This document shows positions 18,686-24,272 of a stretch of 52,203 nucleotides of DNA, in pieces; position 1 is the stretch's first letter; each line of letters starts with the position of its first letter. Where the stretch lies: NCBI GenBank assembly GCA_015232535.1, contig JADFZM010000002.1, positions 1 through 52,203 on the forward strand. The letters run 5' to 3'. The notes under the pieces are model-generated. The model searched no databases and had not been told where the DNA came from. It saw only the letters and a program-made list of their open reading frames with translations. This DNA is from Candidatus Omnitrophota bacterium. Its GTDB lineage: Bacteria; Omnitrophota; Gorgyraeia; Zapsychrales; Zapsychraceae. A program made the translations under genes and the position numbers.

Positions 18686-18913
18686 ATGATCACGCCGGAG
18701 ATGAGAGAACTGATAAACGATCCTCGCGTAAAAGAGGAGATCAACAAACACCGTTGGTATGAAAGCGAGCGCAAGGGCTCGGATGTCGGGTTGGACTATG
18801 CGGTTGAGGATTGGCTGAGAAAATACTCTTTATCTTGGATGAAACGTAATATTTCCCTAGAAAGGACAGAAACTGTTTGGGAATCGATAAAGAAAGTATT
18901 TAATAAAAAGTAA
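18686..18913 (+). CDS. Small protein of unknown function
   Basis: 75 residues with a strong GGGAGGAG (18676-18683) two bases before its ATG, 24 bases after the pilin stop. Highly charged and predicted helical, with a tryptophan/tyrosine-rich middle (HRWYESERKG, DWLRKYSLSWM). No signal peptide, membrane segment or family motif that I recognise. Co-transcription with the pilin gene up to the terminator at 18972-19010 is likely. The good ribosome-binding site is the main support for its being real. Confidence 0.65.
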   Translation: MITPEMRELINDPRVKEEINKHRWYESERKGSDVGLDYAVEDWLRKYSLSWMKRNISLERTETVWESIKKVFNKK

Positions 18914-18971: not shown

Positions 18972-19010
18972 AAAAAAAAGGCAACTCAAATATTGAGTTG
19001 CCTTTTTGTT
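18972..19010. terminator. Bidirectional rho-independent terminator
   Basis: Perfect 10-base stem GGCAACTCAA (18980-18989) / TTGAGTTGCC (18993-19002) with a 3-base loop, A-rich on the left (18972-18979) and T-rich on the right (19003-19010 and beyond). It can stop transcription from the small gene at 18686 (+) and from the beta-helix gene (-), whose stop codon is at 19031. Confidence 0.9.
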
Positions 19011-19030: not shown

Positions 19031-20200
19031 TTACCTGCCGCCGTACTGTTCCATCAAAAGCATCTTTGACCCTTTAGTCGGTGGCTTTGTTGTCTTTGCG
19101 GCTTCTATTGTATTGCCATAAGCCCCGATATTTACTCTTCCGCCGTTATAATTGGGCTCAAGAGAATAGGGGTCTGCCGGATCTCCTTGATCGATTACCG
19201 GAGAAATAAAGTTTTGCTCATGAAAGTCTCCGTTTGCCGCATCGACAAAAAGAGGGTCCTCGGAGATATTGTTAGCAAGAGTTGCTCGACCGGTCTGATA
19301 ATCACCCGAATCGTTTAAGTATACATCATTATATGAAACTGTTACGTTTTGGTCGCGGTCGGTAGTAAGCTTTGTTACTATTCCCCTCCCGCGGTTATTA
19401 AATACAACATTGTTCCTAATACTAACTGATAATGGTGTGTAATAGAGAGCTGTTGATATTGCTTTTCCTTGGGTGTTTGTAAGCCCGGTTATGGTGTTAT
19501 TAACTATAGTTCCTCGAAAAAGCTGACCTTCCGCTTGAATTCCATTGCCAAAATTTGTTATTAAATTGTTTCTGATTATAACTTGTTCATTGACGGTATT
19601 TGAATTAGATAAAATACCTACTGAGTTAGGGCAATTATTAGATCCCAAGATTATTAGTTTATTTCCGGAGATGGAACCGGATGTTCCACTAAACTCGAAC
19701 CCCTTCTGTACAGAACAGGATCCGTTATGGACTTCAAAATGATTGTTGGTAATTCTCGCATTGGATACTCCAAGAGCGACTACACCAGTACCAACTACAT
19801 TTACAAACTTTGAATTCCTGACTTCCATTTCAGAGCTATAATTAAATGATAAATCAATGTTGTCGAATTTCATGTTTTCAATAACAATGTTGTCAGAATC
19901 AAAAACGTGTATAGATAGATTCAGGATAGTGTCTTCCGATGATTCACCCCTAAATGTCAGATTTGATTTATTTTCCAAGTAGATATGCGGTTCTCCTTCC
20001 TCAGGATTTTCCGAGGAGGAGGGAACATACACTCCGTTAGCAATAAAAATAGTATCTCCTTCTTCAGCTGCGTCTATGGCTTGATAGATTTTTGGGTAAT
20101 CTGCAGGAACATTAAGAGTCGCCGCTTCACCAATATAGGGAAGGGCCCAGAAACAAACAACTGCGGTGAGAAAAACTGTTGATAGGGTTAATTTCTTCAT
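19031..20200 (-). CDS. Secreted right-handed beta-helix (pectin-lyase-fold) protein
   Basis: 389 residues from the ATG at 20200; GAAAGGAGA (20207-20214) lies six bases upstream, deciding the start over a TTG at 20227. The N-terminus MKKLTLSTVFLTAVVCFWAL is a signal peptide, probably cut after GEA near residue 26. LNVPADYPKIYQAIDAAEEGDTI opens a parallel beta-helix, with many Asn-rich turns such as IRNNLITNFGNGIQ, NNTITG and SIRNNVVF. The C-terminal DPLFVDAANGDFH ... SPVIDQGDP ... NIGAYG pattern is common in secreted right-handed beta-helix proteins. It is probably a surface or secreted polysaccharide-binding/lyase or adhesin protein. Expression appears controlled by the c-di-GMP riboswitch upstream. 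No catalytic residues can be assigned. Confidence 0.85.
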   Translation of the reverse strand: MKKLTLSTVFLTAVVCFWALPYIGEAATLNVPADYPKIYQAIDAAEEGDTIFIANGVYVPSSSENPEEGEPHIYLENKSNLTFRGESSEDTILNLSIHVFDSDNIVIENMKFDNIDLSFNYSSEMEVRNSKFVNVVGTGVVALGVSNARITNNHFEVHNGSCSVQKGFEFSGTSGSISGNKLIILGSNNCPNSVGILSNSNTVNEQVIIRNNLITNFGNGIQAEGQLFRGTIVNNTITGLTNTQGKAISTALYYTPLSVSIRNNVVFNNRGRGIVTKLTTDRDQNVTVSYNDVYLNDSGDYQTGRATLANNISEDPLFVDAANGDFHEQNFISPVIDQGDPADPYSLEPNYNGGRVNIGAYGNTIEAAKTTKPPTKGSKMLLMEQYGGR

Positions 20201-20229
20201 TAAGATCTCCTTTCGTTCGTGCTGCAAAA

Positions 20230-20262
20230 TTTAAAAGCCCTTTTCCTTATCAGAATAGGGCT
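20230..20262 (-). terminator. Terminator hairpin of the riboswitch expression platform
   Basis: On the minus strand, AGCCCTATTC (20262-20253) pairs with GAAAAGGGCT (20245-20236) with one mismatch and a 7-base loop, followed by a U-rich stretch (TTTAAATTTT) toward 20227. It lies between the aptamer and the ribosome-binding site, where a ligand-controlled terminator would be expected. Confidence 0.65.
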
Positions 20263-20276
20263 ATTAAACAAAAAAA

Positions 20277-20366
20277 TCGTTTTGTTCGGTAGTCCGGCTA
20301 TCCTTTTTAAGGACCATGGATTTTGCGTCCCAGCATTACTGCTGGTTTGCCTTTATCGTAAAACGA
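20277..20366 (-). promoter_or_regulatory. Cyclic-di-GMP-I (GEMM-I) riboswitch aptamer
   Basis: Read on the minus strand, the segment shows the conserved blocks of the class I c-di-GMP aptamer in order: AAAGGCAAACC, a P2 stem CCAGCA/TGCTGG capped by the GNRA tetraloop GTAA, GGACGCAAA, CCATGG (tetraloop-receptor side), then AAGGATAGCCGG and ACTACCG. P1 is TCGTTTT (20366-20360) with AAAACGA (20283-20277). The spacing agrees with the Vc2 aptamer. It is in the 5' leader of the secreted beta-helix gene, followed by a terminator-like hairpin. Whether ligand turns expression on or off is not decided by the sequence alone. Confidence 0.93.
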
Positions 20367-20391
20367 CAAATATTTTATACATCCGTTTACA

Positions 20392-20419
20392 AGAATAGCA
20401 TTAATTTTCAATCTGTCAA
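20392..20419 (-). promoter_or_regulatory. Candidate promoter of the riboswitch/beta-helix transcript
   Basis: On the minus strand, TTGACA (20419-20414), 16 bases, then TATTCT (20397-20392). Transcription would begin near 20385, about 20 bases before the aptamer's P1 stem, leaving the whole riboswitch in the leader. Confidence 0.5.
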
Positions 20420-20759: not shown

Positions 20760-22442
20760 ATGGGTAAAAATAAATTTCCATTAGGGCAGCTTTTAATAGA
20801 GAAGAAGATCATAACCCAAGAGCAGTTGGATATTGCTCTTCGAAAGCAAAAGGAAACAGGAGAGCTTTTAGGAGCGACCTTGCTGGATTTGGGCTTCATT
20901 GATGAGGAAACGGTTTTCATTCCTTTATTAGCCGGCCAATTAGGGGTTGATTTTATAAGCTTTAAGGACCTGCAGATCAATCCCGAAGCGATAAAAAAGT
21001 TGCCCGCTAAATTCGCCAGCCATTATAATATAATACCCTGTGATTTTAAGGACAATGTGCTAAAGATAGCGACTACCCAGCCTCTGGATGTGCATTTGAT
21101 CGATGAGTTGAGCTCGGTGGTTAAAAGCAAGGTAAAGACTGTCTTGGCCAGCGAGAAGGACATTACGGAGGCGATAAGGCAATATTACGGTGTCGGCGCG
21201 GAAACGATCGAACAGATGATGGGTTCTGTTCAGCAATCGGCTGTCAGCGAGAAGGAAGTCGCCGGAATTGAAGATGAATCCGAGGCCTCGATAAGCAAAT
21301 TTTTAAACCAGATCATTATCGAGGCGTACAGGGATAGGGCGACGGATATCCATATCGAGCCTTACGAAGACGAGCTTAAAATAAGGTACCGTATCGACGG
21401 AATATTATACGACGCCAAGGTCCCGGCGAACATCAAGGTTTTCAAGGATGCCATAAATTCGCGCATAAAGATTTTATCAAACCTCAATATCGCCGAGAAA
21501 AGGGTTCCGCAGGATGGGAGGTTCAAAGTAAGGGTCAATGACCTTGATATTGACCTTCGCGTATCATTCCTTCCCACCCAGCACGGCGAAAGCGTTGTTT
21601 TAAGGGTCTTGAATTCCGCCCGCTTGTACGATCTCGAGGAACTGGGGTTCAATAAAGATGAGTTAAAGATAATAGAGAATATCCTCAAGCGGCCGCACGG
21701 GATAATTTTCCTCACCGGCCCCACCGGAAGCGGAAAGACAACCACTCTTTATTCATTCCTTTCCAAGGTCAATACCGAGGATAAAAAAATAATCACGATC
21801 GAAGACCCTGTCGAATACCAGCTAAAAGGTATAACGCAGATACAGATAAACCCTAAAGTAGGCCTCACTTTCGCCCAGGGCCTGCGTTCCATGCTCCGCC
21901 ATGACCCGGACATAATGATGGTCGGAGAGGTTCGCGATATCGAAACCGCCGAGATAGCCATTCAGGTTGCCTTGACCGGGCATTTGGTTTTATCGACCTT
22001 GCATACGAACGATGCACCAAGCGGGGTGGCGCGGCTTTTGGATATGGGAGTTGAGCCTTATTTGATAACCAGTACGGTGGAGTGCCTGATCGCTCAGAGA
22101 TTGGTCAGGGTTATTTGCCCCAGCTGCCGCCAGAGCTATATTCTGCCCGACGATGTCCTGGAGGAATTCGGCGAGGAAAAAGGAAAAGAAGTTATCGCCT
22201 ACAAAGGCAAGGGCTGTGAAAGCTGCCATTTCACCGGCTATATCGGGCGCGAGTCGATCTACGAGATCCTGGTCTTTAGCGAGGAGATACGCGGCCTGGT
22301 AATGGAAAGGGCGACGGCAAATCATATCCGCGAAAAAGCCGCAGCGCAGGGGATGAAAACACTTCTTCATTCCGGCTGGGCGAAGATCAAAAAAGGCATT
22401 ACTACCGTCGAAGAAATCTTCAGGGTAACAAAAGATGAATAG
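20760..22442 (+). CDS. gspE: Type II secretion/type IV pilus assembly ATPase GspE/PilB
   Basis: 560 residues. The N-terminal domain (about 5-65) has the MshEN pattern: LGQLLIEKKIITQEQL, IALRKQ, LLGATLLDLGFIDEE; this domain binds c-di-GMP in some family members. The ATPase has Walker A GPTGSGKT (320-327), Asp box ITIEDPVEYQ (346-355), Walker B IMMVGE (385-390) and His box TGHLVLSTLHTND. Zinc cysteines are 453, 456, 486 and 489. It powers pseudopilus assembly from the cytoplasm, with GspF as membrane partner 19 bases downstream. The riboswitch next door hints that c-di-GMP may matter to the locus. Confidence 0.95.
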   Translation: MGKNKFPLGQLLIEKKIITQEQLDIALRKQKETGELLGATLLDLGFIDEETVFIPLLAGQLGVDFISFKDLQINPEAIKKLPAKFASHYNIIPCDFKDNVLKIATTQPLDVHLIDELSSVVKSKVKTVLASEKDITEAIRQYYGVGAETIEQMMGSVQQSAVSEKEVAGIEDESEASISKFLNQIIIEAYRDRATDIHIEPYEDELKIRYRIDGILYDAKVPANIKVFKDAINSRIKILSNLNIAEKRVPQDGRFKVRVNDLDIDLRVSFLPTQHGESVVLRVLNSARLYDLEELGFNKDELKIIENILKRPHGIIFLTGPTGSGKTTTLYSFLSKVNTEDKKIITIEDPVEYQLKGITQIQINPKVGLTFAQGLRSMLRHDPDIMMVGEVRDIETAEIAIQVALTGHLVLSTLHTNDAPSGVARLLDMGVEPYLITSTVECLIAQRLVRVICPSCRQSYILPDDVLEEFGEEKGKEVIAYKGKGCESCHFTGYIGRESIYEILVFSEEIRGLVMERATANHIREKAAAQGMKTLLHSGWAKIKKGITTVEEIFRVTKDE

Positions 22443-23691: not shown

Positions 23692-23702
23692 AGTTCCTAA
23701 GT

Positions 23703-23980
23703 TCCGGGGACGCGTACCTAATTATGGAAATGAAAAAAGTAATATTCAAAATCCATGATGATTAGACAGAAGATATTATAAGGAGTTGACTAAGGTATTT
23801 ATTCTTGACCAGCGGTGAGTTGCGGGCAGTTGAAGCCGTATTTAAAAAGTTCTTTGTTATAACCGGACAGGGATTCTGCCTGACGCCTGCCTGGCGAAGG
23901 TTGGGGCGGCCAGGGGGAGTTCCGGGGATACGTACCCAATTAAGGAAGCTCAGGGGATATGAATTAGGTACGCGTCCCCA
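23703..23980. repeat. REP-like motif in three copies, with an imperfect hairpin
   Basis: A motif containing GGGGACGCGTACCTAATTA occurs at about 23706-23724. A variant with GGGGATACGTACCCAATTA occurs at about 23924-23942. An inverted copy with AATTAGGTACGCGTCCCC is at about 23962-23979. Copies two and three can fold into a long imperfect hairpin with the palindromic GTAC at the core. Immediately after, CCCATAATTGT is repeated in tandem (about 23978-24000). The pattern resembles REP elements mobilised by Y1 (RAYT) transposases, but no transposase gene is present here. Confidence 0.7.
23823..23915 (+). repeat. 93-base direct repeat, copy 1
   Basis: Begins CGGGCAGTTGAAGCCG and ends TTGGGGCGGCCAGGG. 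By eye it differs from copy 2 (24001-24093) at 9 of 93 positions, with no gaps, and the copies are offset by 178 bases. Contains CTGCCTGACGCCTGCC, which is self-complementary in parts. No coding potential is apparent, although a short open frame crosses it. Confidence 0.8.
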
Positions 23981-24000
23981 TAATTGTCCCCATAATTGTC

Positions 24001-24093
24001 CGGGCAGTTGAAGCCGTATTTTAAAAGTTCTTTGTTTTACTCGGACAGTGATACTGCCTGACGCCTGCCCGGCGGAAGTTGGGGCGGCCAGGG
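24001..24093 (+). repeat. 93-base direct repeat, copy 2
   Basis: Second copy of the repeat at 23823-23915, about 90 percent identical over its full length. Both copies abut the GTAC-centred REP-like motifs, suggesting one composite intergenic element that was duplicated in the gspF-gspG spacer. Confidence 0.8.
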
Positions 24094-24272
24094 TTAGGCG
24101 GGGTTGATAATTTTAATTCCCCCCACCCCCCATTGCTGGAGGGGGTCTTAATCGATGTTTTAGTTGCACATCGGGGAGGAAAACAACGGAAGCAACAATT
24201 TTTATAATGACGTAATTCAAGGATATTTAAGGTAAAAACAGGATAGAATTAGAAAGTAATATGGGAGGAGAT
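24094..24272. other. Spacer before gspG
   Basis: Contains a C-tract/G-tract pair around 24119-24146 that could form a GC hairpin. A TATAAT at 24203-24208 is about 65 bases before gspG and lacks a clear -35 element. It may hold a promoter for the gspG-M genes. The ribosome-binding site GGGAGGAG (24263-24270) directly precedes the gspG start. Confidence 0.45.

Follow-up and report, generated by a model that had tools for sequence, protein, structure and literature searches.

A class I c-di-GMP riboswitch upstream of an exported beta-helix gene in Candidatus Omnitrophota is predicted to be a transcriptional OFF switch

An uncultured Candidatus Omnitrophota bacterium encodes an exported beta-helix protein, and upstream of the gene lies what the sequence identifies as a genuine class I c-di-GMP (GEMM-I) riboswitch. 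It is likely, judging from modelled folds, that this element is a transcriptional OFF switch acting in cis on the beta-helix gene, which would probably be turned off at high c-di-GMP. An earlier note on this DNA had named no direction of control; folding predicts OFF, a prediction made because of the competing folds of the leader and the precedent of Cd1, a riboswitch studied by NMR. Within the window (the whole stretch of DNA analysed, 52,203 nucleotides) the elements follow one another in the order promoter-like pair, aptamer, terminator hairpin, ribosome-binding site (RBS) and ORF, as listed here with the gene and the terminator behind it.

20392-20419, minus strand: promoter-like pair TTGACA-16-TATTCT, from a consensus scan (10/12 matches, TG before the second hexamer)
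20276-20367, minus strand: aptamer with extended P1, GUCGUUUU (20367-20360) / AAAACGAU (20283-20276), read from the sequence and used in the constrained folds
20285-20361, minus strand: aptamer core, with P2 at 20345-20330 and P3 at about 20320-20292, from the RF01051 match and residues read from the sequence
20298-20304, minus strand: predicted antiterminator strand AGGAUAG, the 3' strand of P3
20252-20258, minus strand: CUAUUCU, part of the terminator 5' arm and predicted partner of the P3 3' strand, from folding and shuffles
20226-20262, minus strand: intrinsic terminator, hairpin AGCCCU..AGGGCU (20262-20236) and interrupted U-tract (20236-20226), -12.4 kcal/mol
20205-20210, minus strand: RBS GGAGAT, read from the sequence
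19031-20200, minus strand: gene for the 389-residue exported right-handed beta-helix protein (P0001; PF13229 and signal peptide), start ATG at 20200
18975-19007, no strand assigned: strong terminator 3' of the beta-helix gene, a 15-pair hairpin with a T-run on both sides

The family assignment rests on an Rfam cmscan of the whole window, in which positions 20361-20285 of the minus strand matched RF01051 (c-di-GMP-I) over its full length (model positions 1-87 of 87) with 58.7 bits against a gathering score of 35 and an E value of 5.4e-9, while no other Rfam family was found over its cut-off. The Infernal search that the earlier note had proposed as a check of its identification is thus significant, and the identification stands. 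In a permissive scan RF03167 (c-di-GMP-I-GGC), whose name we take to denote a G at the A47 position, overlapped the aptamer with 56.8 bits; this lies under its own gathering score of 59, and the family was rejected on that ground. In the Omnitrophota aptamer the A47 position is an A. A model specific to the order (R1), which was built partly from the same sequence, scores the aptamer at 79.2 bits. In Vc2 of Vibrio cholerae, the reference aptamer, the ligand is contacted by G20, A47 and C92 (PMC4744006); read from the minus strand, and in Vc2 numbering, these residues are 20351, 20324 and 20289, and binding of c-di-GMP is predicted. The aptamer blocks, GNRA-capped P2 and P1 stem described in the earlier note are all readable: P2 is CCAGCA-GUAA-UGCUGG, capped by GUAA, and P1 is the extended helix listed above. 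The three residues, the capped P2 and P1 are common to Vc2 and the Omnitrophota riboswitch; Vc2, however, is a translational switch, whereas the Omnitrophota leader has a terminator and a P3 5' strand one nucleotide longer. That strand also exceeds the Rfam consensus by one nucleotide, and it is because of this extra base that the model counts three mismatched P3 pairs; re-registered by one base, the helix reads UCC/GGA, GG/CC, UCCUU/AAGGA. The helices are supported by double-sided changes at 12 of the 15 consensus pairs in an order-specific alignment of 30 related aptamers, and the leader folds better than its shuffles (z -3.4).

The terminator-like hairpin that had been placed between aptamer and RBS is real. 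Counted from the 3' end of the aptamer, it lies wholly downstream, at +22 to +49; it is absent from the list returned by a strict terminator scan, and its U-tract is broken (UUUUAAAUUUU). The promoter-like pair reported upstream is well placed and matches 10 of 12 consensus positions, but such matches are common in this AT-rich region, where 9 were found against 7.2 expected, so that their number is not above chance.

Growing transcripts were folded from a presumed start near 20385. With no ligand bound, and from the emergence of the terminator 5' arm onwards, the 3' strand of P3 pairs with 20258-20252 in these folds with a probability of about 0.99. The antiterminator so formed consumes strands that P3 and P1 require, and in free RNA it persists up to the synthesis of the final four terminator bases. 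When the aptamer was enforced in constrained folds the antiterminator became impossible and the probability of the terminator was 0.95-0.98; the terminator-type expression platform of the earlier note holds up in these folds. The arm was shuffled 500 times, and the whole sequence 3' of the aptamer another 500 times; in neither set was the observed antiterminator pairing reached. At equilibrium, the terminator is better than the antiterminator by about 2.8 kcal/mol in full-length free RNA, from which we infer that the switch would have to work by kinetic trapping of the antiterminator. In the mechanism we propose, when c-di-GMP is scarce AGGAUAG and the bases that follow it would pair with CUAUUCU of the terminator 5' arm, and the antiterminator, lengthened by a AACAAAACG/UUUUUUUGUUU hairpin, would let the polymerase read through. 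Bound c-di-GMP would lock P1 and P3 and leave the terminator 5' arm free, upon which the AGCCCU/AGGGCU hairpin would halt transcription upstream of the RBS. Control would be in cis on one gene, that of the exported beta-helix protein. It could be argued that the ligand instead, or in addition, alters access to the RBS, as in the unconstrained minimum free energy fold of the 189-nt leader GAUUUUUUU pairs with the RBS region. Once 30 nt of the ORF are included, however, RBS accessibility is 0.40-0.42 in every state of the aptamer, and translational control through RBS masking, which we regard as most improbable, was rejected for that reason.

The closest precedent for a transcriptional OFF switch of this design is Cd1 of Clostridioides difficile, which turns off a flagellar operon in response to c-di-GMP; by NMR its aptamer and terminator are present together, in competition with a short-lived antiterminator (PMC9262584). 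As in Cd1, the Omnitrophota aptamer is followed by a wholly downstream terminator, and the antiterminator is made of an aptamer strand and the terminator 5' arm (PMC9262584); the terminator is compatible with the folded aptamer and the antiterminator is not. The two differ in their targets, a flagellar operon in Cd1 and an exported beta-helix protein here, and Cd1 is described without P1, a stem that in the Omnitrophota aptamer can be drawn as an extended helix. The opposite direction, in which the bound aptamer would prevent termination, has a model in the cGAMP-sensing GEMM-Ib riboswitch of Geobacter pilM, an ON switch whose terminator shares an aptamer strand (PMC9262584). That topology is found in four leaders from the same order (L022, L155, L201 and L202), in which the terminator overlaps the 3' strand of the aptamer. 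In the leader studied here, by contrast, the terminator is wholly downstream and, in the folds, forms alongside a bound aptamer; we consider an ON switch unlikely. The pilM riboswitch and the Omnitrophota switch have fold and clan in common, but the latter keeps G20 and has a separate terminator.

The gene under this predicted OFF control fits the secreted beta-helix protein that had been proposed as the target. P0001 matches Pfam PF13229 with an E value of 1.4e-10 (41.5 bits against a cut-off of 25.9) and begins with a signal peptide read from the sequence, MKKLTLSTVFLTAVVCFWALPYIGEA; a role at the cell surface is predicted. Because the gene is followed by the strong terminator at 18975-19007, riboswitch and gene probably form a monocistronic unit. 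No relative of P0001 was found by sequence in the PDB, and a single-sequence AlphaFold model (pLDDT 41) was too poor for use. The 54 related genomes hold no relative of the protein, which is thus restricted to one of the 55 genomes searched, where it has two partial paralogues. This restriction, together with the extra base and three model mismatches in P3 and the interrupted U-tract, might be read as the mark of a decayed aptamer that folds and may bind its ligand while the gene is no longer controlled, and there is a precedent for binding without regulation in Bc1 of B. thuringiensis, which binds c-di-GMP with no change in expression (PMC11218506). All specificity residues are intact, however, and the complementarity of the antiterminator is far above that of shuffles; we therefore give decay very little credence.

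Comparison with a close relative indicates how the unit is distributed. At the corresponding locus of that relative (L050), whose GspE is 84% identical, the flanking genes match: a small ORF (18686-18913 in the window, 5634-5867 in L050) and then gspE. The riboswitch and the beta-helix gene are missing from L050, which has some 60 bp where the window has about 1.8 kb; both flanks align by BLAST. Riboswitch and gene are thus a unit of ~1.8 kb that is present or absent as a whole. At a further locus (L052) a different c-di-GMP-I riboswitch occupies the same divergent position before gspE, and its target is an unrelated exported protein of 1714 residues; at two others (L102 and L070) a c-di-GMP-I riboswitch lies directly 3' of gspE. 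By a rough estimate, three gspE neighbours in 80 loci are more than expected at roughly one riboswitch per 200-400 kb. Relatives of the gspE gene of the window place the host in Candidatus Omnitrophota. This gene (20760-22442, plus strand), divergent from the riboswitch, encodes a GspE/PilB-like ATPase with an MshEN domain. The MshEN motif consists of two copies of RLGxx(LVI)2xxG(LVI)2xxxxLxxxLxxQ (PMC5013675). The neighbouring GspE matches Pfam MshEN and NCBIfam NF053729, but in motif I it has P for R and K for G, and in motif II L for R and G for Q; with key residues of the motif missing, it was not relied on as a second c-di-GMP sensor. Farther along the window, the DNA between gspF- and gspG-like genes (23700-24150) holds a repeat in two nearly identical copies, GGGCAGTTGAAGCCGTATTT.AAAAGTTCTTTGTT..CGGACAG, as well as GGGGACGCGTACC elements in inverted orientation.

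The riboswitch is one of many. The 2.2-Mb draft genome of the host has 11 RF01051 hits, and across the 55 genomes searched (its own and those of relatives) the family was found at E <= 0.001 in all 55, and over its cut-off in 54, with 2-14 per genome. From these genomes about 119 riboswitch loci were gathered. An ORF lies no more than 500 nt away in 108 of the leaders; 90 of these have a terminator of <= -8 kcal/mol, and in 74 of those 90 it starts 9-110 nt 3' of the aptamer. In these 74 leaders the pairing of the terminator 5' arm with the aptamer is 0.565, against 0.321 for shuffled arms (Wilcoxon p 4e-10, a value that is too small as the sequences are related), and CCUAU occurs in 36 of the 74 arms against 1.9% expected. 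The antiterminator design is thus common to the leaders of the order. Aptamer-terminator duplexes were no stronger in their own than in swapped combinations in this order-wide set (permutation 858/2000), and pair-specific co-evolution was dropped because swapped duplexes are equally good.

Long aptamer matches of 120-146 nt recur among the relatives, and hairpin inserts of roughly 30-85 nt stand in P2 or the P2-P3 junction at L008 (502-664), L009 (1501-1623) and L011 (1501-1623). In the leaders of L001 (1501-1690), L002 (1501-1700) and L139 the P3 3' strand occurs twice, one copy in the aptamer, split by a hairpin before ACCGA, and the other as the terminator 5' arm. For these three an ON switch with a decoy strand, in which the proximal 3' strand would lack C92, was considered and dropped as unsafe; C92 may be retained, because the inserted hairpin precedes an intact ACCGA.

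The first gene behind the riboswitch was surveyed in 96 cases in which an RBS could be recognised. A prepilin motif is present in 25 of these genes, and in 51 the N terminus is signal- or TM-like; by crude sequence rules about 79% of the 96 targets thus look exported or pilin-like, compared with 30% among 379 background ORFs from around gspE. Pfam matches among the targets include response regulators, NHL propellers, subtilases and beta-helices (the last in 4 of 65 scanned, P0001 included). A family of exported proteins of about 85 residues (signal peptide, then ..SYKVSVTIPALVGVN..), with no Pfam name in the tally, recurs behind c-di-GMP-I riboswitches of the order (L025, L027, L039, L145, L153, L182, L195 and others). 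At L005, downstream of 1501 on the minus strand, no clear gene follows the riboswitch and its terminator; tandem repeats with a unit of about 48 bp (CCCCCGAAAACGCTCTGGCGTTTTCTGGGGGTATTAAGATGTCGGTTTA) stand there, along with masked bases.

Usually c-di-GMP is tied to the choice between a motile and an attached lifestyle, and from this usual role it may be supposed that the beta-helix gene is tied to the same switch. The supposition gains indirect support because the other targets are mostly exported or pilin-like and because the host genome encodes five GGDEF and two EAL domains. It should be emphasized that both the class and this kind of expression platform were known before, and that the riboswitch itself is an ordinary member; what is new is its host, its target gene, the direction of control that is predicted and how far the regulon extends. 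In the literature searched we found no paper joining Omnitrophota (or Omnitrophica) and riboswitches, although others may exist. Tentatively, we suggest that the Omnitrophota have a c-di-GMP regulon, mainly of exported and pilin-like proteins, in which repeated leader cassettes with a common antiterminator design (CCUAUUC of the terminator 5' arm paired with P3) stand before unrelated, lineage-specific secreted proteins, sometimes beside a secretion or pilus ATPase gene. If this is true, a species could put a new surface protein under c-di-GMP by the acquisition of a single cassette. For the single gene this is a standard riboswitch; the greater interest lies in the regulon across the phylum. 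The riboswitch described here would give access to a dense c-di-GMP regulon of an uncultured phylum, and the surface programmes of the Omnitrophota may be readable from sequence and testable in vitro without culture.
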